Positions 35,624 through 46,281 are shown, counted from the stretch's first letter. The stretch: 64,000 nt of DNA from Bacteroidota bacterium (GCA_013112545.1 JABFGJ010000010.1:1-64000); one strand, 5' to 3'. Notes: a model not told the origin generated them from the letters alone. Numbers and translations: made by a program.

Positions 35624-35656
35624 CAAGATTCTTTTAATCTTGAGCCTAAATTTTTT
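35624..35656 (+). terminator. probable terminator, partial member of the GGCTCAAG terminator family
   Basis: CAAGATT (35624-35630) pairs with AATCTTG (35636-35642), followed 8 nt later by six T. The right part CTTGAGCCTAAATTTTTT is identical to the right arms of the terminators at 37336 and 43087, while the matching left arm has been lost here. Confidence 0.6.
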
Positions 35657-35759
35657 CTAAAAAACATGTTTGATTGTTAAATTTTCTTAACTTTAACACC
35701 ATGTTAACGAAACCATTAGCTACAATATCACCAAAATCGGAGAAGAGCACTCACCTCAC
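35639..35759 (+). repeat. launch-module repeat, copy 1
   Basis: This copy shares with 37356-37480 and 43107-43230 the terminator right arm, the AT-rich spacer and the coding start ATGTTAACGAAACCATTAGC through the ACTC tract. Here the frame then runs straight into a secreted protein instead of stopping. Confidence 0.85.
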
Positions 35760-37317
35760 TAAAATTTCAAGTTATTTCATTCTATTCTTCTTTTTATTTG
35801 TTTGGGTGCCTCTGGGCGCCCAAACATTTGAAAAAACCATTACAATTAGTCCTTTTTTCAATCACTTTAACAAAGTAATAACAACCCCTTTGAATGAAAT
35901 TTTAATTTCTGGATCCAGTTTTCAAATAACTTCTGATTCAACAGCAATTATTCAATACACAAGTCTTATTCATTTGAGTAAAAGCGGGGAATTGAATCGA
36001 CTAAAAATATTAAAGACTTATGAATTTAACAATACAAGCCCAATCGACACCGCTTTTGAATTTAATGATTTTATTGCAACTTATGAGTCCCCCAATAAAA
36101 TAAAGTTATTAGGTTCATTTCGAGTAAATGAAAAAAACTCATCTGTATCTGCACTACTTGAGCTAGATTCAAGTTTTATTGTTCAAAATGTACATGTCAT
36201 AGATACAATTGAACAACATTTAGTTTTTAACCATAAGGCAAAAAGGTTTAGTAATAGTTTTTATATTCAAGCGATTAAAAGCTTAATTACTCCTTATGAT
36301 TATTATCGATTGATTGAAATTGATAGCTTAAACAGGATTAAGGAGTTTAACTTATATGATACTATAACTGGCTTAAGAATTTATCAATTACACGATTTCT
36401 TACAGTCTAAGAGTGGCATCAATTATTATTTTGGAAATGTTTTAGATACAAATAATCAATATCATTTTAATCAAATCATAAAATTAAATTCTAAACAAGT
36501 TGTTTTGAAGAGAAAATTAATAGACTATCCATTGACAAGTAGAGATGTAACCGAATTTATATTTCCATCAATTGATGCCAGTTGGACACTCGATAGCAAT
36601 ATCGCTATGGTTATCACAGTTGATACTGAATTTGATCATAAAGGAGATATTCACCTGTTTTTATTCGATACTTCATTAACTCAATTGAAGTACAAACGTT
36701 TAATTACTCATGATAGCCTAGAACAAGCGTTTTATTATCAAAATCTTGTATTTGATTCTGTTTCCAATTGCTTTTATTTTGCTTGTCACCAGAAAGCATC
36801 AGATGATTTTAGCAACATAATCTATTCACAAGATACTTCAGATTTTAGGTTGGTTAAGTTCGATAAAGATTTGAACATAAGATTCGACAGAAGGTATAGA
36901 AGAAACAAAACCATGATGATGAATACTTTGACAACTGATTCAGAAGGCAACGTGATTATGGTTGGTCAAATTCAAGATCCAGATAGGACAAATCTTTATC
37001 ATGGTGATTTGTATATTTTGAAAGTCGATTCCCTTGGAAACTTCAACCCAATTGGTATTTCAGAAGAGAAAATTGATCCTTTGAATTATGCACTATTTCC
37101 CAACCCAGCTGATGACCAACTTGTTTTTAGACAATATAACCTAAACGAAAAGTATAACCTAAAAATTTACGATAACAAAGGGGTTTTAATAAAAAAAGAA
37201 AGAATTAGTCAACAAGAGCAAATTATTAATGTAACAAGCCTAACAACAGGTGTTTACATTTATTTATTAGAAGACTCTAAAAACAGAATGATTTCTGGCA
37301 AAATCATGAAAAAGTAG
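35701..37317 (+). CDS. secreted protein with T9SS type A C-terminal sorting domain
   Basis: The 538-residue protein starts with the repeat-encoded MLTKPLATISPKSEKSTHLT, then a strongly hydrophobic core and VPLGAQ, a signal peptidase I-type end near residue 41. The body resembles a beta-propeller/kelch-like exported protein with repeated LxLDSS and FNDF strands. The last ~75 residues (YALFPNPADDQLVF ... LTTGVYIYLLED ... GKIMKK) form a T9SS sorting domain. The ATG at 35701 is preferred over the TTG at 35674. Unlike the next two cassettes it has no lipoprotein partner. Confidence 0.85.
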   Translation: MLTKPLATISPKSEKSTHLTKISSYFILFFFLFVWVPLGAQTFEKTITISPFFNHFNKVITTPLNEILISGSSFQITSDSTAIIQYTSLIHLSKSGELNRLKILKTYEFNNTSPIDTAFEFNDFIATYESPNKIKLLGSFRVNEKNSSVSALLELDSSFIVQNVHVIDTIEQHLVFNHKAKRFSNSFYIQAIKSLITPYDYYRLIEIDSLNRIKEFNLYDTITGLRIYQLHDFLQSKSGINYYFGNVLDTNNQYHFNQIIKLNSKQVVLKRKLIDYPLTSRDVTEFIFPSIDASWTLDSNIAMVITVDTEFDHKGDIHLFLFDTSLTQLKYKRLITHDSLEQAFYYQNLVFDSVSNCFYFACHQKASDDFSNIIYSQDTSDFRLVKFDKDLNIRFDRRYRRNKTMMMNTLTTDSEGNVIMVGQIQDPDRTNLYHGDLYILKVDSLGNFNPIGISEEKIDPLNYALFPNPADDQLVFRQYNLNEKYNLKIYDNKGVLIKKERISQQEQIINVTSLTTGVYIYLLEDSKNRMISGKIMKK

Positions 37318-37335
37318 GATTCATTAGTCCCATTA

Positions 37336-37373
37336 TTAGGCTCAAGATTTTTAAACTTGAGCCTAAATTTTTT
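37336..37373 (+). terminator. intrinsic terminator
   Basis: TTAGGCTCAAG (37336-37346) and CTTGAGCCTAA (37356-37366) form a perfect 11-bp stem followed by T6. It ends the T9SS gene and starts the second copy of the launch module. Confidence 0.92.
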
Positions 37374-37418
37374 ATAAAAAAAACGTGTTTGTTTGTAAAA
37401 TTTCTTAATTTTAACATC

Positions 37419-37538
37419 ATGTTAACTAAACCATTAGCTACAATATCACCAAAATCGGAGCAGAGAACTCACTCACTCATGGCTAAATTATACCTCATTT
37501 TTAATATGTATTTATTACTTATTTTATGGGAGATGTAG
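37419..37538 (+). CDS. 39-residue mini-ORF of the launch module, copy 2
   Basis: The peptide starts MLTKPLATISPKSEQRTHSL and ends in a hydrophobic stretch YLIFNMYLLLILWEM. The first 14 residues equal the N-terminus of the T9SS protein at 35701. It ends 107 bp before the lipoprotein ATG, with an RNA stem in between. It is either an expressed leader or small membrane peptide, or the relic of a signal peptide whose gene was replaced. Conservation with copy 3 supports selection but does not prove translation. Confidence 0.45.
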   Translation: MLTKPLATISPKSEQRTHSLMAKLYLIFNMYLLLILWEM

Positions 37539-37549
37539 TTTTTATAGGC

Positions 37550-37626
37550 GATGCAAGAATTAGTAAGATTTGTAATAATTATTTAATTGTATGTCAAACC
37601 TAAAATCTTACTATTTCTGAGACATC
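37550..37626 (+). promoter_or_regulatory. candidate structured 5' leader, copy 2
   Basis: TAGTAAGATTT (37561-37571) is perfectly complementary to 37603-37613 across 31 nt, enclosed by GATG (37550-37553) and CATC (37623-37626). The loop contains ATGTC, which could pair instead with GACAT at 37621-37625, so two mutually exclusive folds are possible. The equivalent stem in copy 4 has another sequence but is also perfect. Confidence 0.55.
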
Positions 37627-37645
37627 AAACCCAAAAATTACACAA

Positions 37646-38683
37646 ATGAAAAATTTATTTAAAACAACAGCCATGTTAATGGCTTTAACAATAGGAATGG
37701 TTTCTTGCGAAAAAGAAGAAATTAATAATCCAAGTAATATTAATAATCAAAAGGATGTAACCTCAAAAAAGAAAACAGTGATTCAAAAAAGTGGTGATGA
37801 TGATGAAATATATAATGATATTTTAGATTTTGCAGACGCTATTGGTTCAGAAAATGTTTCAGAACAAGAAGCAGAATATGGTCTTGAGTTATTGGAAGCA
37901 ACTTTGAATCTAAATTTAACTAATGATGATTATCTTCCTCAAGAAGTTCATTTCGTTGAAACAGAATATCAAGTTGAAGTTTCAACCAATGGAGGTTTAG
38001 TAATTACAGGTGAAGAAGTTGAATCGATTTATTCGGAACTATATGATGATATATATGATGAGGCTTCCAATTTTACGTTTGATACAGAAAATGATGGCAA
38101 GTTTATTTCGGTAATTGATCTAGACTGGAGCACATTGGAAGAAGGGACAAATACAATTTTTGTAAGCTATGCGATACATAGCTTCTATAATATACATCCA
38201 AGTTGTGCTTTTACTGAATCATGGAAGCCCATGTTTAATCTTGGTGGCTGTAATTCCAACCTTGCAACAAGTAGCGATGCGGCACAAGAAATTCAGAGAA
38301 GAGCCAATAAATTAACTTGCAATTCAAATCTTACTAATTGTGGTAACTCAGTTTGGTTTAGCATGAGCAAAACACCTTTTATTTACCCTTGGTCTAATCA
38401 AGGGTGGAGTCAAAAATATACCAATACGAGCATTTGGGACGATGTTACCTATGCTTCCGTTTGTTTAGGGCCTACAAGATTAGACGAGTTGGTAGATAGC
38501 TGTATTTGGATAGGAAATAATGAGAAACCATCCAACTCAGCTATTTCTCTTAAGAATATTATTGTTTCAACAGATATTTTAACATCAACACAAAATACAG
38601 TATATACCCATAGGTATAGATACTTTTATGGAAAATGTGTTGGTAGTGCTATTTCTAAACCAAAACCTTGTTTCTCATGTTAA
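37646..38683 (+). CDS. surface lipoprotein, cassette payload A
   Basis: The 345-residue protein has signal MKNLFKTTAMLMALTIGMVSC. It is followed by EKEE, which matches the K-(D/E)2 lipoprotein export signal known from Capnocytophaga, so surface exposure is likely. The N-terminal third is acidic. The C-terminal half is Cys-rich (about 10 Cys) with paired motifs and ends in CFSC. Parts align by eye with the 365-residue protein at 40430 (GCNSNL..., IWDDVT, FYGKC), although the signal peptides are almost identical and the mature regions are not. It overlaps the following T9SS gene by 7 bp. Function unknown. Confidence 0.8.
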   Translation: MKNLFKTTAMLMALTIGMVSCEKEEINNPSNINNQKDVTSKKKTVIQKSGDDDEIYNDILDFADAIGSENVSEQEAEYGLELLEATLNLNLTNDDYLPQEVHFVETEYQVEVSTNGGLVITGEEVESIYSELYDDIYDEASNFTFDTENDGKFISVIDLDWSTLEEGTNTIFVSYAIHSFYNIHPSCAFTESWKPMFNLGGCNSNLATSSDAAQEIQRRANKLTCNSNLTNCGNSVWFSMSKTPFIYPWSNQGWSQKYTNTSIWDDVTYASVCLGPTRLDELVDSCIWIGNNEKPSNSAISLKNIIVSTDILTSTQNTVYTHRYRYFYGKCVGSAISKPKPCFSC

Positions 38684-40179
38684 AAAAAAGAAATCTAATT
38701 CTAATAATGGTCATGCAGTTCTGCATGACCACTTATTCTCAAACATTTGATTATTTATATGATCAATCTTTTACATTAGATGTAGCTGACGTAATAGAAA
38801 CGCAAAATGATTATTTGCTAATTGCTTTTAAATCTACCTATCCAAATTTTGAATCTGTTTTTATTCGAATTTCCAAAACTGGACAATTTATTTCAGATAG
38901 CATTGATAATACACACCCTGGATACATGACTCAGAAAATTCATAAATACAATCAAAATTATTTACTGATAAAGAGTATTCTATCTGGGCTTGGTTCTGAT
39001 AGGATTGTTATTCAAGAGGTTGATTCAACACTAAAAAATCAAATTTCTAGTTATGCCTATTCAAGCAATTCAACATTTGATATTGCCAATGCCAGAATTC
39101 TATCAAACAATCAACTATTAATGGTTGGCAATTCGTTTCAACAAGGAGTAGGAAGAGATGCTTTTGTTTATCAATTCAACCTAGATACGCAATCTGACAC
39201 CATGATTAATTTAGGAAATAACAATCCAACACTTGACTTAAGTTCTGACATATTGATGTTAGGGGGCAAGTATTATGTATTTAAAACAATAGGGAATACG
39301 AGTTCTAACTGTGCTACTTTTAATGAGATTAGTAGATATTTCGCTGATTGGACTCATGACACAACGGTGGCAATCTGTAATTCCATCAGCACTTCAACTG
39401 ACCATCATTTTCGTTTTATAGTTAGTGCCTTAAAGATTTCTGAAAGCGATTTTATGATGGCCGCAAGAGCTGATTATTCAAACTCAATAAACACAATTCG
39501 TCCAGAACAAATTGGCCAATTACATTGGGATACAAATTTTGTTGAATTAAATGCCTCTTTATATGGGAAATACGATACTGTGGCAATAGAAGCAAATCAA
39601 GGAATTTCAAGATTTTCAAATCATCCATTTGTCTTTGTTGGAGGAACAGAAAACTATAAAGTAAACCCAGCTGGTGTTGACACTACCGACTCATTTTATA
39701 CTTTAATTAAAACTGATTTATTGGGAAATCCAATATGGACTAGGTATTATTCCAATCATTCCTATCTTCAGTTGAGAAAGGTTTTAGCTACTTCAGATGG
39801 GGGTGCAATTATGGTTGGGTCTTCGTATGATGAAAACAGAAGTAACAATAGTTCAACAGAAAAAGAGCTGTGGATTTTAAAAGTCGATAGCAACGGCAAT
39901 ATGAGTAACTCGAATTCTATAATTGAAAACAAATTAAAACCAACTCTTTTATTTTATCCAAATCCTGTAAATAATATCTTGTACTATAAGCAAATTAATT
40001 CTTTTAATGATTATAGCTTTCAGCTCTACGATAGCAAAGCGAGTGTCGTTTTACGGAGTGCGATTTCGAATACTTTTGGCGAGATTGATGTTTCTCAATT
40101 GATTAATGGCGTTTATTTCTATTTACTATTTGACAATAATGGTTTAGCGATTCAAAGAGGTAAAATAATTAAACAATAA
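38677..40179 (+). CDS. secreted T9SS type A cargo protein, cassette A
   Basis: The 500-residue protein starts MLKKRNLILIMVMQFCMTTYSQ (signal peptide) and ends in a T9SS sorting domain (LFYPNPVNNILYYK ... LINGVYFYLL ... GKIIKQ). The body has repeated TSDGGAIMVGSS-like and LDTQSD-like strands, suggesting a propeller fold. The ATG overlaps the lipoprotein stop (ATGTTAA), implying translational coupling and perhaps a lipoprotein-cargo complex. It is paralogous to the proteins at 35701 and 41529. Confidence 0.87.
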   Translation: MLKKRNLILIMVMQFCMTTYSQTFDYLYDQSFTLDVADVIETQNDYLLIAFKSTYPNFESVFIRISKTGQFISDSIDNTHPGYMTQKIHKYNQNYLLIKSILSGLGSDRIVIQEVDSTLKNQISSYAYSSNSTFDIANARILSNNQLLMVGNSFQQGVGRDAFVYQFNLDTQSDTMINLGNNNPTLDLSSDILMLGGKYYVFKTIGNTSSNCATFNEISRYFADWTHDTTVAICNSISTSTDHHFRFIVSALKISESDFMMAARADYSNSINTIRPEQIGQLHWDTNFVELNASLYGKYDTVAIEANQGISRFSNHPFVFVGGTENYKVNPAGVDTTDSFYTLIKTDLLGNPIWTRYYSNHSYLQLRKVLATSDGGAIMVGSSYDENRSNNSSTEKELWILKVDSNGNMSNSNSIIENKLKPTLLFYPNPVNNILYYKQINSFNDYSFQLYDSKASVVLRSAISNTFGEIDVSQLINGVYFYLLFDNNGLAIQRGKIIKQ

Positions 40180-40204
40180 ATTAGTTGCTAAAATTCAAAG
40201 GTAA

Positions 40205-40318
40205 ATGAAACCATTAACAAAAATATCACCAAAATCGGAGAAGAGCACTCACTCACTCACGGCTAAATTATACCTTAATTATAATATGTATTTATTACTT
40301 ATTTTATGGGAGATGTAG
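40205..40318 (+). CDS. 37-residue mini-ORF of the launch module, copy 3
   Basis: The peptide starts MKPLTKISPKSEKSTHSLTA and ends in the same hydrophobic NMYLLLILWEM and TAG as copy 2. The N-terminus is shortened compared with MLTKPLATISPKSE. Expression not shown. Confidence 0.4.
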   Translation: MKPLTKISPKSEKSTHSLTAKLYLNYNMYLLLILWEM

Positions 40319-40329
40319 TTTTTATAGGC

Positions 40330-40410
40330 GATGCAAGAATTGGTAAGATTTGTAAGAATTAATTAATTAATTGTATGTCAAACCCAAAATCTTACTATTT
40401 CTAAGACATC
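40330..40410 (+). promoter_or_regulatory. candidate structured 5' leader, copy 3
   Basis: TGGTAAGATTT (40341-40351) pairs with 40387-40397 with one G-U wobble in place of an A-U pair. The flanking GATG and CATC are kept at 40330-40333 and 40407-40410. The stem is thus maintained despite a base change. Confidence 0.55.
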
Positions 40411-40429
40411 AACCCCAAAAATTACACAA

Positions 40430-41527
40430 ATGAAAAATTTATTTAAAACAACAGACATGTTAATGGCTTTAACAATAGGAATGGTTTCTTGCGAAAAAGA
40501 AGAGACCAATTTCAGAAACAATGCAAATAATAGAGCCTCGGTTGTGTTATCTAGTAAAGTAGATAAAGTAAATCAAAGGTTGAAAAATAAACTCCTATCA
40601 ATGTCAGAAGCGGATTATGTAGCGATTGCAGCACCCATTAAGGCTCAGTTAGAAGTGAACCATAGATTAAATAATGACAAATCATTAAATGCAATCCCAT
40701 TAGAAGATATCTTTTTTATTCATGAGGGAGTCATCAATTCAATTTATACAACCCCGTTAGACCCTGAGGATGAATCAGAAATATTTACAACCACACATGA
40801 ACTGGAGGTTAGTTTAGATGAAAATAATAATTATATTATTGAAATAAATGATTATAATGAATTTTTTACTAATGTTAGCAATACCTTGAGTTCTGAAGTT
40901 AGCCCACAAGAAGGAGAATATTTAAGCCTTACAGATTTAGAATTAATAAGCATAGAGAATGATGTTGCTGTCATTCAATTAAAATCTATTGTTTCGCAGC
41001 CCCCTGTTAATCAAACATTTAATCTTTTGCCTGGAGGGGAGGTATATGGTGCTGATTTAGCAGGTTGGTGCGACACAAATTTAACTGGGACTGATGCCTC
41101 TGTATTTATAAATAATACTATTCAAAAATTAGGAGCAAACACAATAACTGGCTCAACATGTCCCACAAACACAGGTCGTTATCTATTTGTTATGGGTACG
41201 TTTAATACCATGTATTCTAACGATGCTGTAAATCACGGCTTAACATATTCATATGTGTTGTCAAAAATTTGGAAGGATGTTACAAACTCTTGTGTTGGAG
41301 ACAATTCCAATTCTTCAAACAATAATACAATTTGGCAGAATTGGTATAATAATGCTAGTAGTCTAGTAAACGCGCCAATTGCTCATTATTCAACATGGGG
41401 TAATGCCGTTTTTTGCTATGGTCAATTATCATCTGATTCATATAATAATTCTACGATAAAATTAGCAGGTAGCTATAATTTTTACCATAAAGCAATGTTG
41501 TTTTATGGAATTGAAATTTGTCCTTGA
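40430..41527 (+). CDS. surface lipoprotein, cassette payload B
   Basis: The 365-residue protein has a signal peptide identical to payload A except for one residue, lipobox GMVSC and export tail EKEE. The mature part is strongly diverged from payload A. Shared landmarks are a C(N/D)xNL block, IWKDVT, and an ending FYGIEICP with Cys next to the C-terminus. The stop lies 1 bp before the T9SS gene start. No known domain recognised. Confidence 0.8.
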   Translation: MKNLFKTTDMLMALTIGMVSCEKEETNFRNNANNRASVVLSSKVDKVNQRLKNKLLSMSEADYVAIAAPIKAQLEVNHRLNNDKSLNAIPLEDIFFIHEGVINSIYTTPLDPEDESEIFTTTHELEVSLDENNNYIIEINDYNEFFTNVSNTLSSEVSPQEGEYLSLTDLELISIENDVAVIQLKSIVSQPPVNQTFNLLPGGEVYGADLAGWCDTNLTGTDASVFINNTIQKLGANTITGSTCPTNTGRYLFVMGTFNTMYSNDAVNHGLTYSYVLSKIWKDVTNSCVGDNSNSSNNNTIWQNWYNNASSLVNAPIAHYSTWGNAVFCYGQLSSDSYNNSTIKLAGSYNFYHKAMLFYGIEICP

Positions 41528-41528
41528 T

Positions 41529-43082
41529 ATGTTCTATTTAAACAAAACAAAGAAGCTTAGGGTAATAACCCAAAGCCTCTTTTTTATTCTTCCTTTATTT
41601 TCATATAGTCAAGTTGTTCAGGATATTACTTTTAGTACTGGTTCTAAAGCCAAAGACGTTAATAATCTTTTACCAATAATATCTTACCAGCTTAAAGATT
41701 ATAGCAGTCAGAAAGTATTGTTTTCATTTTATAAATCGGGGGCAAATAACAAAGTTGAAAAAAAGGTTGAAATTGAAATTGGTAAAACAAGTTTTAATCA
41801 ACAAAGCATAAAAACGATATGGAATAGAGACACTTTGAAGGTTTTTAAGAATTTTTATGGTGAATATGGTATTGCTACCTCACTTTTGTATGACTCTGTA
41901 AATCATGTTAAGTATTTTTTTGAAACCTATGTATTTCACGATAGTACTAGTACTGTCATAAATCTTTATTCTGTAAAAAATAATACTGAAAAAGACTCAT
42001 TGATTTTCTATAAAATATTGGCTAATCGGAAGCTACTCTTATTCCCATTTATTCATGATTCTAAGGTAATTACCTTTACAAGTTCTGGAAATGCACAGTC
42101 TTTTATAGGGCATATTGAAAAATTTGATTTCCAAGGAAACTTGATATTACAAAGGATTATTGATTATAATAATTTAGACGTGTCAAAAGATTTTAGTATT
42201 CATAACTATTGGAATCCTAAATTACATCCTTTAGTTGATTCACTTTTTACAATAGAAACAACTTATGGTGGATATTTTATGGTTACTCTCAATATAAAAA
42301 CCTTAAATACTGTAAACCGAATCGGAATTAATCAGCAGATTGGAGCATATTTAGCAAACACATATCGTTATGCAGGTGCAAATAGTTATGGCTTTCATAT
42401 AGATAGTACAGGAGTAGAAATGGGTGGGTATGTATCTATGTTGAACGCTAATAATTCATTTGACAATCAATTTTTCACCTGTAAGATAGCTTGGGATAGT
42501 ACATTAATTAGCTTTCATGAATATGGCGATACACTAATAGACGAACGAGCTTATGCTTTTGTTAAACAAGACTCTATAAAATACCTCGTTGGTGCAAGTC
42601 CTAGAAATACAAATGACCCATATGCAACTGAATATCGAAAAGTAGTTTTATATAGAATTAGTCCTTCACAAGTAGATACGATAAGCCTTTATGGCAATAA
42701 AAATCACATTGCTGAAAATTTAATTGTGGATGATAGTGGAGATGTGTTTATAGCAAGTAGCTACTCCAATGCATGGTCTAACGATAGCATTTATTTGGTT
42801 GTTACAAAAATCCCTCATCAGATATTTTTGTCAATAGCAGAGCAGAAAATCAGTAGAAAAATTGAGCTGTATCCCAACCCAACAAGTGGAATTTTAAACT
42901 CTATTGATTTTAAATTTGGGAATCATGTTTTAATATATAATATAAAGGGTCAACTCGTTTTACAAAGCACAATTAGCAATGAAGGGGTATTTGATGCTAA
43001 AGCATTAAAAGCAGGAACTTATTTTATTCAGGTTAGAAATGTTGCGAATTCAAAAGCAACTTTATTTATAAAAACAGAATAA
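41529..43082 (+). CDS. secreted T9SS type A cargo protein, cassette B
   Basis: The 517-residue protein starts MFYLNKTKKLRVITQSLFFILPLFSYSQ in sequence order (basic start, hydrophobic core, SYSQ cleavage end). It closes with a T9SS sorting domain (ELYPNPTSGILNS ... ALKAGTYFIQV ... ATLFIKTE). The ATG at 41529, right after the lipoprotein stop, is preferred over the in-frame ATG at 41505. The central region has the same propeller-like texture as its two paralogues. Confidence 0.87.
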   Translation: MFYLNKTKKLRVITQSLFFILPLFSYSQVVQDITFSTGSKAKDVNNLLPIISYQLKDYSSQKVLFSFYKSGANNKVEKKVEIEIGKTSFNQQSIKTIWNRDTLKVFKNFYGEYGIATSLLYDSVNHVKYFFETYVFHDSTSTVINLYSVKNNTEKDSLIFYKILANRKLLLFPFIHDSKVITFTSSGNAQSFIGHIEKFDFQGNLILQRIIDYNNLDVSKDFSIHNYWNPKLHPLVDSLFTIETTYGGYFMVTLNIKTLNTVNRIGINQQIGAYLANTYRYAGANSYGFHIDSTGVEMGGYVSMLNANNSFDNQFFTCKIAWDSTLISFHEYGDTLIDERAYAFVKQDSIKYLVGASPRNTNDPYATEYRKVVLYRISPSQVDTISLYGNKNHIAENLIVDDSGDVFIASSYSNAWSNDSIYLVVTKIPHQIFLSIAEQKISRKIELYPNPTSGILNSIDFKFGNHVLIYNIKGQLVLQSTISNEGVFDAKALKAGTYFIQVRNVANSKATLFIKTE

Positions 43083-43086
43083 ATCT

Positions 43087-43124
43087 TTAGGCTCAAGTAT
43101 AAAAATCTTGAGCCTAAATTTTTT
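43087..43124 (+). terminator. intrinsic terminator
   Basis: TTAGGCTCAAG (43087-43097) pairs perfectly with 43107-43117, followed by T6. The arms are identical to the terminator at 37336 but the loop differs. Confidence 0.92.
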
Positions 43125-43285
43125 CTAATAAAACGTGTTTGTATGTTAAATTTTCTTAATTTTAACATCATGTTAACGAAACCATTAGCTACAATATCAC
43201 CAAAATCGGAGAAGAGAACTCACTCACTCACTCATGGCTAAATTATACCTTAATTATAATATGTATTTATTACTTATTTTATGGG
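43107..43285 (+). repeat. launch-module repeat, copy 4
   Basis: This copy matches copies 2 and 3 through the mini-ORF region. The ACTC tract has four units instead of three, and similarity decays after the TAG, where the stem sequence changes. Confidence 0.88.
43170..43241 (+). pseudogene. mini-ORF of the launch module, copy 4, frameshifted
   Basis: It begins MLTKPLATISPKSEKRTHSL as in copy 2, but one additional ACTC unit shifts the frame, so it ends THG-stop after 23 residues and the hydrophobic C-terminus is lost. The downstream sequence for that part is still present in another frame. Confidence 0.5.
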
Positions 43286-43304
43286 AGATGTAGTTTTTGG
43301 TGAC

Positions 43305-43396
43305 GATGCTGTTTTTAGATAGATTTATAGGAAAGAGCGGAAATTATTTTTTCGATGTCAAACCAGACTCTCAATCTATCTAAATCTCACGACATC
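43305..43396 (+). promoter_or_regulatory. candidate structured 5' leader, copy 4
   Basis: TTTAGATAGATT (43314-43325) is perfectly complementary to 43373-43384 (12 bp, 47-nt loop). GATG and CATC enclose it, and the loop GATGTC (43354-43359) can alternatively pair with GACATC (43391-43396). The stem sequence differs from copies 2 and 3 while the architecture is the same. Confidence 0.55.
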
Positions 43397-43416
43397 CAAA
43401 CTTAAAATATAATAAA

Positions 43417-44082
43417 ATGAAAAATGTAATAAAAATGGGTGCTATTATGGTAGCGCTAATAATCGGATTAGCTTCTTGTGAGAAAGAAGATAATGTAAAT
43501 CCCTTAAATCTAGCAAACTCCGAAACTGTAGTTATTAAGAAAGATAGAACACAATCAAATAAATCTGAGGAATCATATTTGGCTGAAATGGCTCAAGCAG
43601 CTAATATTAGTGAAATTAGCTATGAAGGAGGTCAATATGTAATCACATTTCATAATTCAAACGATGAATATACTGTTGATGTTGTTGATTTTGATATGGA
43701 ATCATCAATTGAGTATCTGATAACCTACAATTCGACTACGACTGAGGTTTTAATTGATTTTACCGCCGAGATAGTTAGTATAGAAGACTTAGATGACTAT
43801 GATTTTGAAGAGTATGCAACTTTTAATGTAACAAGCAATGAGAATGTACTTAGAAATGTTGTCTCAGTAATTACAGGACATCATGCTTTCGAGGCCGAAG
43901 CATCAGTAACTTATTCTGACAATGGTTCTAGTGATGTTGCTCCTACCATAGACCCTGATACGGATGCAAGACGAAAGTTTATTGGAACAGTTCATCATCC
44001 ATGTATATATGGATGGACAAGAGGAACAAGCAAATATTTCTTTTGGATCAGAGTTGGTGGTAATAAACCAGGTGGATGTTAA
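43417..44082 (+). CDS. surface lipoprotein, cassette payload C
   Basis: The 221-residue protein has signal MKNVIKMGAIMVALIIGLASC and export tail EKED. The middle is very acidic, and the C-terminal ~45 residues turn basic and aromatic (HHPCIYGWTRGTSKYFFW) and end KPGGC. It shares layout, signal type and a terminal Cys with payloads A and B, but the body is unlike them. A terminator separates it from the next gene. Function unknown. Confidence 0.75.
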   Translation: MKNVIKMGAIMVALIIGLASCEKEDNVNPLNLANSETVVIKKDRTQSNKSEESYLAEMAQAANISEISYEGGQYVITFHNSNDEYTVDVVDFDMESSIEYLITYNSTTTEVLIDFTAEIVSIEDLDDYDFEEYATFNVTSNENVLRNVVSVITGHHAFEAEASVTYSDNGSSDVAPTIDPDTDARRKFIGTVHHPCIYGWTRGTSKYFFWIRVGGNKPGGC

Positions 44083-44948: not shown

Positions 44949-45053
44949 TTGCTAATTCTTATTACTCAAACCAATCAGTTTGTTGTTTATGATAGCTCTG
45001 CATAACTCTGAATTGTTATTTAAATGACGATAAACTACGCTTTTTAAAACTAT

Positions 45054-45126
45054 CCTCCAATCCTCAACTGAACCATGCCTTTCACTTTCTCAAATAAATT
45101 TTGTGGGCTGTATGTTCTCCAGTTGA
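45054..45126. repeat. direct repeat, left copy, flanking the toxin-antitoxin module
   Basis: The 73 bp match 45716-45788 with one mismatch. On the minus strand it is the 3' end of the gene at 45712, here encoding NWRTYSPQNLFEKVKGMVQL and then a TAG stop, a gene-end remnant without a full gene. Confidence 0.93.
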
Positions 45127-45711: not shown

Positions 45712-46281
45712 TTACCCTCCAATCCTCAACTGAACCATGCCTTTCACTTTCTCAAATAAATTTTGTGGGCTGTATGTTCTCCAGCTGAGGTCGTTTAATT
45801 GACCACCGGAAACCAAGTAATAATCGATGTTTGCTTCTGCAAAATCGTGCAAAACATGTTCTCTAAAATTTAGAAAGCAAATCCAGCCGTCTTCTACGTC
45901 TTCAAACCATTCTTCATAATAAGAATCGTCGGAATAGTGAAAATTTAACACGTTTTCGCCAATCAGGATATATTTATTAATCCCTTCATGAACCAATTCA
46001 TCTATGATGTTTCGTTTCAAAAACATAATGTCATTGTAGAGTAAATCATTCCATTCTCCAATCAATTCTATGATTGCATAGCCTTCCTCATAGTCGGCCA
46101 TTAAGATTTTGATGAATAGGGTAGTGGACTCTATATTATCCCATTGCGGATGAATGAGATGATCGTAAATGGCATCGGTAAATTCAAACTCACTATAAAT
46201 GCGTTCAAAAAAAGGAGAACGAGGGTCTTCCGACGCAATGTACTCATCTCTCCATCTATAAAAAGGCTCTATTGCGTGCAT
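45712..46281 (-). CDS. conserved hypothetical protein next to murQ
   Basis: The 189-residue soluble acidic protein is rich in Tyr, Trp and Glu, with segments ILMADYEEGYAIIELIGEW and NFHYSDDSYYEEWFED. It has no signal peptide or membrane segment. It follows murQ by 5 bp on the same strand. I do not recognise the family. Its last 24 codons are duplicated at 45054-45126 on the other side of the toxin-antitoxin module. Confidence 0.75.
   Translation of the reverse strand: MHAIEPFYRWRDEYIASEDPRSPFFERIYSEFEFTDAIYDHLIHPQWDNIESTTLFIKILMADYEEGYAIIELIGEWNDLLYNDIMFLKRNIIDELVHEGINKYILIGENVLNFHYSDDSYYEEWFEDVEDGWICFLNFREHVLHDFAEANIDYYLVSGGQLNDLSWRTYSPQNLFEKVKGMVQLRIGG
45716..45788. repeat. direct repeat, right copy, flanking the toxin-antitoxin module
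   Basis: This is the functional 3' end of the 45712-46281 gene without its stop codon. It is 72/73 identical to 45054-45126; the period is 662 bp. Confidence 0.93.

Follow-up and report, generated by a model that had tools for sequence, protein, structure and literature searches.

Neisseria-type simple sequence repeat (SSR) contingency loci carry their tracts inside signal-peptide or coding sequence. At the pil1 locus of Streptococcus gallolyticus, the length of a leader peptide depends on the number of repeats, and a terminator hairpin is then opened by the translating ribosome (PMC3894217). The vlhA genes of Mycoplasma have variable GAA repeats in the promoter region (PMC6258824). Here we describe a locus in a 64,000-nucleotide (nt) stretch of DNA from a marine Bacteroidota bacterium (GCA_013112545.1 JABFGJ010000010.1:1-64000; the window), in which four copies of a 5′ module lie ahead of genes for predicted lipoproteins and cargo proteins of the type IX secretion system (T9SS). 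Our preferred reading, to which we give a probability of roughly two in three, is that slipped-strand phase variation of a leader open reading frame (ORF) controls each lipoprotein and T9SS cargo operon, and that recombination, frequently with a breakpoint in the repeat, has spread the leaders.

In the window and in most relatives the tract lies in a separate upstream ORF, unlike in the Neisseria-type loci; a lipoprotein gene of a related genome (G019) resembles those loci in having (CT)8 inside its own signal peptide, out of frame as assembled, and its product is 11 amino acids (aa) long at eight units but would reach 376 aa at six and 378 aa at nine. Judged by analogy, the nearest proven mechanism is that of pil1. 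Both systems have frame-shifting repeats in a leader ORF with all three phases possible and a surface-protein operon downstream, and, as in pil1 (PMC3894217), the leader stop codon here would shift relative to a downstream candidate stem-loop; as read from the DNA, the unit here is not divisible by 3 and sits in a putative leader ORF before a predicted surface-protein operon. The pil1 system has a single GCAGA repeat and an experimentally shown terminator, and the sections consulted mention no peptide box, whereas the present system occurs in Bacteroidota, has lipoprotein and T9SS cargo, repeat units that change between genera, a conserved box at the leader end, a stem without a T run and a module shared among operons by recombination. 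The vlhA genes, among the variable lipoprotein families of Mycoplasma, likewise encode surface lipoproteins in a multigene set and carry a short repeat near their 5′ ends, but that repeat is located in the promoter region (PMC6258824), whereas ours lies in a putatively translated leader and the payloads are two-gene lipoprotein/T9SS operons.

The window genome (G000, 3.27 Mb) was compared with genomes of other genera of the Vicingaceae (Flavobacteriales), the family that it shares with the metagenome-assembled genome (MAG) JAGYIE010000003.1 (G009), using one genome per species. The first-pass annotation of the window had proposed four related 5′ modules, and all four were located where it had placed them. 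What it called a mini-ORF proves to be a leader ORF with a short tandem repeat running through it: (ACTC)3, (ACTC)3 and (ACTC)4 in copies 2, 3 and 4; the frame-shifting repeat and a conserved peptide box behind it, both of which it had missed, are the main features of the module. The elements are as follows, with z scores comparing stems with shuffled sequences.

35636-35760 (+): module copy 1, the promoter region and first codons of the T9SS cargo gene T1, up to a degenerate ACTC stretch
37336-37372 (+): inverted repeat with a 9-nt loop and then a T run in the gap between T1 and module 2, like an intrinsic terminator as read from the sequence
37419-37538 (+): copy 2 leader ORF (39 aa in the assembly), box out of frame (presumed OFF phase)
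37467-37478 (+): (ACTC)3 tract of leader 2; loss of one unit or gain of two puts the box in frame
37519-37545 (+): peptide box LFYGRCSFY of copy 2, in the +1 frame, with the box-frame stop codon at 37561-37563
37556-37618 (+): leader stem-loop of copy 2, weak (z −1.8); its 5′ arm (37556-37571) contains the box-frame stop
40205-40318 (+): copy 3 leader ORF (37 aa in the assembly), box out of frame (presumed OFF phase)
40247-40258 (+): (ACTC)3 tract of leader 3; box in frame at two or five units
40299-40325 (+): peptide box LFYGRCSFY of copy 3, in the +1 frame
40336-40402 (+): leader stem-loop of copy 3 (z −1.3)
43081-43117 (+): terminator-like inverted repeat 3′ of the T9SS cargo gene T3
43170-43241 (+): copy 4 leader ORF (23 aa in the assembly), box out of frame (presumed OFF phase)
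43218-43233 (+): (ACTC)4 tract of leader 4; two or five units give the in-frame end FYGRCSFW-stop
43274-43303 (+): peptide box LFYGRCSFW and TGA stop of copy 4, in the +1 frame
43314-43384 (+): leader stem-loop of copy 4, with a 12-bp core and arm sequences unlike those of copies 2 and 3 (z −1.7)

The arrangement recurs across genera. Each of 17 leaders from five genera (G000, G009, G005, G002 and G014) has an ATG leader ORF, a repeat unit of 2, 4 or 7 nt (never 3) and the box in one frame after the tract. The relatives carry (CT)5-10, (CTAT)6, (CTTT)2, (CCTA)8 and a 7-mer in three copies, and the number of units differs between leader copies within one genome. As assembled, the box is in frame in 7 of the 17 leaders, three of which are near-identical copies, and out of frame in 10, all of them one or two units from frame; leader X of G005, in frame on a hand reading, was out of frame in the scripted check. 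Across the 3.27-Mb window genome, ACTCACTCACTC tracts were found only in leaders 2-4, and (CT)5.5 tracts lie in lipoprotein leaders in the single instance in this genome (the C15 locus), in 4 of 4 in G009 and in 2 of 2 in G005.

The box has the consensus LFKG[KR]x[ST]FW-stop, is encoded in a single one of the three post-repeat frames and is found in other Vicingaceae genera as well. Leaders end in RFLFKGKSTFW-stop in G005, RFLFKGKFSFW-stop in G002, RYLFKGRSSFY-stop in G014 and RYLFKSRASFW-stop at the C15 locus of the window genome, and G009 has LFYGKCTFYW within longer in-frame leaders. Its serines are encoded by both AGT and TCT and its glycine by all four codons; therefore, the peptide is what is conserved. 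A search of 395 genomes of the class with a 30-nt box pattern returned seven exact matches, only in G002 and G005, with none for the reversed control, and six of the seven precede lipoprotein signal peptides. Upstream of the tract, the putatively translated part of a G009 leader pair differs at more synonymous than nonsynonymous sites (pS 0.43 vs pN 0.14), in its own frame only.

Elsewhere in the window genome, module DNA was found only as a partial fifth copy (C1:102585-102671), and 60 relatives gave short chance-level matches only. Because the module is absent from the rest of the genome apart from this partial copy, chance similarity among the four modules is excluded. The fifth copy forms the start (G000:C1:102636; L017:4637) of another T9SS protein, C1T, MLTKPLVIISPKKEVKIHLIKIASYF. 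As far as the tract, copy 1 shares 92-98% identity with copy 4; with the C1 paralogue it shares 77% across the initial 48 nt, and both T1 and C1T keep the left part of the module, promoter and start, as their real N-terminus. The first-pass annotation was right that copy 1 shares the module up to the ACTC tract, but its view that copy 1 is a derived fusion to a T9SS protein probably does not hold: since the C1 copy also starts a T9SS protein, the left part of the module appears to be the 5′ end of a T9SS gene, and copy 1 is probably the natural 5′ end of such a gene. In copies 2-4, this T9SS-type start is joined at the ACTC repeats to a different right part. Copy 3 lacks the terminator and promoter segment and starts 25 nt after the T9SS cargo gene T2; therefore, cassettes 2 and 3 are probably one transcript.

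The genes downstream have a history different from that of the module. They comprise the following.

35701-37317 (+): T1, T9SS cargo, 538 aa, with Por_Secre_tail; the sister of its body is the paralogue on C15 and not the one on C1
37646-38683 (+): Lp2, lipoprotein, 345 aa, matching no family; nearest relative G009 Lp0
38677-40179 (+): T2, T9SS cargo, 500 aa, overlapping the end of Lp2
40430-41527 (+): Lp3, lipoprotein, 365 aa, in a clade with the G019 and G014 lipoproteins
41529-43082 (+): T3, T9SS cargo, 517 aa, in a clade with the G019 and G014 cargos
43417-44082 (+): Lp4, lipoprotein, 221 aa
44133-44948 (+): Lp4 partner gene, with a weak CarboxypepD_reg match and no T9SS tail

T1, T2 and T3 all exceed the cut-offs of TIGR04183 and PF18962 (their N-terminal signal peptides were judged by eye), the lipoproteins matched no known family, and their signal peptides have predicted lipobox cysteines (GMVSCEKEE and GLASCEKED). 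Cassettes 2 and 3 are lipoprotein/T9SS pairs, and copy 4 leads a lipoprotein and a CarboxypepD_reg-like protein. The pair itself is conserved, with one to four pairs in each other Vicingaceae genome that carries it (four in tandem in G009, three in G005 and one each in G002, G019 and G014), and related pairs occur in two genomes of other families. Lipoprotein and cargo are inherited pairwise: Lp3 and T3 go with the G019 and G014 pairs, the G005 pair Z goes with that of G002, and Lp2 goes with G009 Lp0 while T2 falls inside the G009 T0 clade.

Across a span of about 296 nt, copies 2 and 3 share 94% of their sequence, with 95% identity from the tract to the lipoprotein ATG and 97% over the first 25 lipoprotein codons; synonymous divergence (dS) between Lp2 and Lp3 is 0.08 through codon 25 and saturated afterwards. 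The described collapse of similarity after the lipobox was therefore borne out, as were signal peptides that differ by one residue (A9D), although copy 4 does not stop resembling the others after the mini-ORF, since a similarity of 77% extends right through its signal peptide. The mature lipoproteins, said to share scattered landmarks, do so as distant homologues (28%, E about 1e-13) and not as sisters: Lp2 scores 229 bits with G009 Lp0 and 57 with Lp3, which itself scores about 180 with G019 and G014. In approximately unbiased (AU) tests on mature sequences, Lp2+Lp3 (p-AU 5e-115) and T2+T3 (5e-54) were rejected as clades, and so was T1+C1T (4e-5) despite their common N-terminal 5′ end. Because these clades are rejected, the payloads seem, on these trees, to be older than the sharing of the module and to have separated before the genera did. 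The picture of a constant launch module with non-matching payloads is thus right, but the proposed origin by tandem duplication followed by diversification gives way to a module recently shared between cassettes by replacement or conversion.

The same pattern, with a different module, recurs in G009. Among three neighbouring cassettes there, B and C have no differences in 547 nt of intergenic DNA and dS is 0 over 200 lipoprotein codons, while pS reaches up to 0.9 and pN 0.1-0.5 in the cargo middles. With dS saturated and dN/dS below 1 in these variable middles, positive diversification of the payloads is unsupported; read this way, the sequences indicate recent homogenisation of the ends over old, constrained middles and not diversifying selection. 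The repeat is a frequent junction between left and right parts, because two mosaics switch there: G009 leader m1 is 93% like B/C to the left of the tract, and to the right 96% like copy 0 and 47% like B/C, and window copy 4 matches T1 at 92-98% before the tract but shows no relation to it afterwards. To the right of the tract, copies 2 and 3 are closest. A side observation concerns the three tandem G009 cassettes at L052:7192-16560 (C10), which have near-identical ends and cargo middles 40-80% identical: a short hypervariable patch near the lipoprotein C-terminus, beside the cargo gene, is possibly an interaction site of the lipoprotein/cargo pair.

Mechanistically, we propose that a short tandem repeat would set the reading frame of the leader ORF upstream of each lipoprotein operon, and that slipped-strand gain or loss of units would shift the ribosome among three frames, one of which ends in or crosses the box near the lipoprotein start or a leader stem-loop. 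The box frame would most likely be the ON phase for the lipoprotein and T9SS operon, acting through translation-coupled relief of attenuation or through translational coupling, and recombination, often at the tract, would share leaders so that unrelated payload pairs gain the same switch and signal peptide. In copy 2, the box-frame stop lies inside the 5′ arm of the stem, and the stops of the assembled frame (ending at 37538) and of the third frame both lie upstream. The leader of G009 copy 0, which is in frame, terminates 5 nt short of the lipoprotein start codon, so direct translational coupling is possible there. A TAAGTTTG element, which we take to match the Bacteroidota −7 consensus TAnnTTTG, lies 4 nt upstream of the start codon in the G009 leaders and suggests that the transcript may be leaderless.

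Several observations weigh against phase variation as the explanation. The stems are only slightly better than shuffled sequences (z −1.3 to −1.8 in the window), vary elsewhere and have no T run, and some leaders of G005 and G002 have a frame longer than that of the box, so that equating the longest leader with ON fails there; attenuation, translational coupling and peptide-dependent stalling may therefore all be candidate modes. The window tracts have only 3-4 units, so slippage may be rare, and the three window leaders and that at C15 are all out of frame, so the switch could be decayed here. Draft assemblies, including at least one MAG, are the source of most tracts, and short repeats can be mis-assembled in them; the leader at L156 has a triplet repeat only, in frame regardless. 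The box was seen by eye before the pattern search was made, and one G002 match, L109 (G002:C8:103016), is an orphan that has only a short TC tract and is not followed by a lipoprotein. CT tracts are not confined to leaders family-wide, as G004 has many elsewhere. The L109 orphan lies upstream of an apparent rpsL and is likely a decayed leader.

A narrower form of the proposal, which we put forward as tentative and less likely than not, is that these Vicingaceae leaders form a phase-variable class in which FKG[KR]x[ST]FW-stop would arrest or pause the ribosome. This stalling peptide would be made in only one frame, selected by the repeat, and would open the lipoprotein/T9SS operon downstream, and the tracts would double as recombination joints through which further surface-protein pairs acquire the switch.

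Among the alternatives, it is rather unlikely that the 5′ module is homogenised and non-regulatory, with conversion spreading a good promoter together with a signal peptide, while the mini-ORF and its repeat are passive or a recombination hot spot only. The mosaic junctions at the tract, the short tracts with every window-genome leader out of frame, and the capture of T9SS-gene 5′ ends as leaders are all what such a module would show, but the box peptide is kept across genera although the repeat units ahead of it are unrelated, units that shift the frame are found at this position again and again, and a passive passenger would not preserve a peptide in a frame that is often unread. We also consider unlikely the antigen system of the first-pass annotation, in which a fixed launch module serves interchangeable surface antigens and variation comes from payload replacement. 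Non-sister payloads stand behind one module in two genera, and three G009 cassettes combine identical ends with diverged cargo middles, yet those middles are under purifying selection, and searches of the genome found no silent donor cassettes lacking the module and no lipoprotein or module copies beyond those listed. The leader ORF might instead encode a functional small cationic peptide or protein that is itself phase-variable, with downstream control incidental; in-frame leaders of 49-75 aa with a conserved basic-aromatic C-terminus would suit it, but we find it improbable because N-termini are unrelated between genera (those in the window coming from a T9SS gene), conservation is confined to the C-terminal box, as for a leader or arrest peptide, and the box occurs almost only before lipoprotein genes. 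An old tandem duplication in place, with diverging payloads and a 5′ part kept by purifying selection on promoter and signal peptide, fits the adjacent, equally oriented cassettes and their distantly homologous payloads but is highly improbable, given module synonymous and non-coding sites that are 95-97% identical against saturated payload dS and the AU rejection of both Lp2+Lp3 and T2+T3, unless long branches mislead the trees.

Further searches of the region gave no match in an Rfam covariance-model scan at E up to 1 and none to PADLOC defence profiles. Lp2 had no match in the searched genome contigs, and a G009 lipoprotein query matched its own MAG only. The AlphaFold model of Lp2 is of low confidence (predicted local distance difference test, pLDDT, 36); that of T2, also of low confidence (pLDDT 49), is all-beta and resembles a propeller, with TM-scores of 0.11-0.34 to the query, a weak hint of such a fold, and searches against solved structures returned nothing useful.

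Several features outside the leaders were also recorded. CT tracts in G004, G007, G003 and G058, and two of the three in G019, lie in different contexts and were not counted as leader tracts. In G004, another Vicingaceae genus, many long intergenic (CT)11-23 tracts (L149-L155; C1, C25, C40, C54, C61 and C78) are candidate phase-variable promoters, that on C40 lying about 100 nt upstream, in antisense, of the apparent start of a secreted-protein gene. Signal peptides (SLSLS) contain (CT)7 in a PorP/SprF-looking protein (L157:1029; G019 C9) and (CT)6 in a kelch-like protein (L159:960, reverse strand; G007 C18), both in frame as assembled. In G058, from another family, contigs C23 and C32 (L091 and L092) begin inside lipoprotein/T9SS pairs of nearly the same sequence, which suggests a tandem array that the assembly left unresolved. 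In the window, a 76-nt repeat, 97% identical (45051-45126 and 45713-45788), repeats the end of a minus-strand gene of 189 aa and is the remnant of a partial duplication.

Leader-ORF phase variation combined with attenuation is represented by essentially one described case in the literature found (PMC3894217). If our reading is true, a conserved version in a family of marine Bacteroidota would make it a recurrent solution, tied here to type IX secretion, and the locus is a sharp example of a module and its payload evolving separately, in which microsatellites would serve as both switch and recombination joint.

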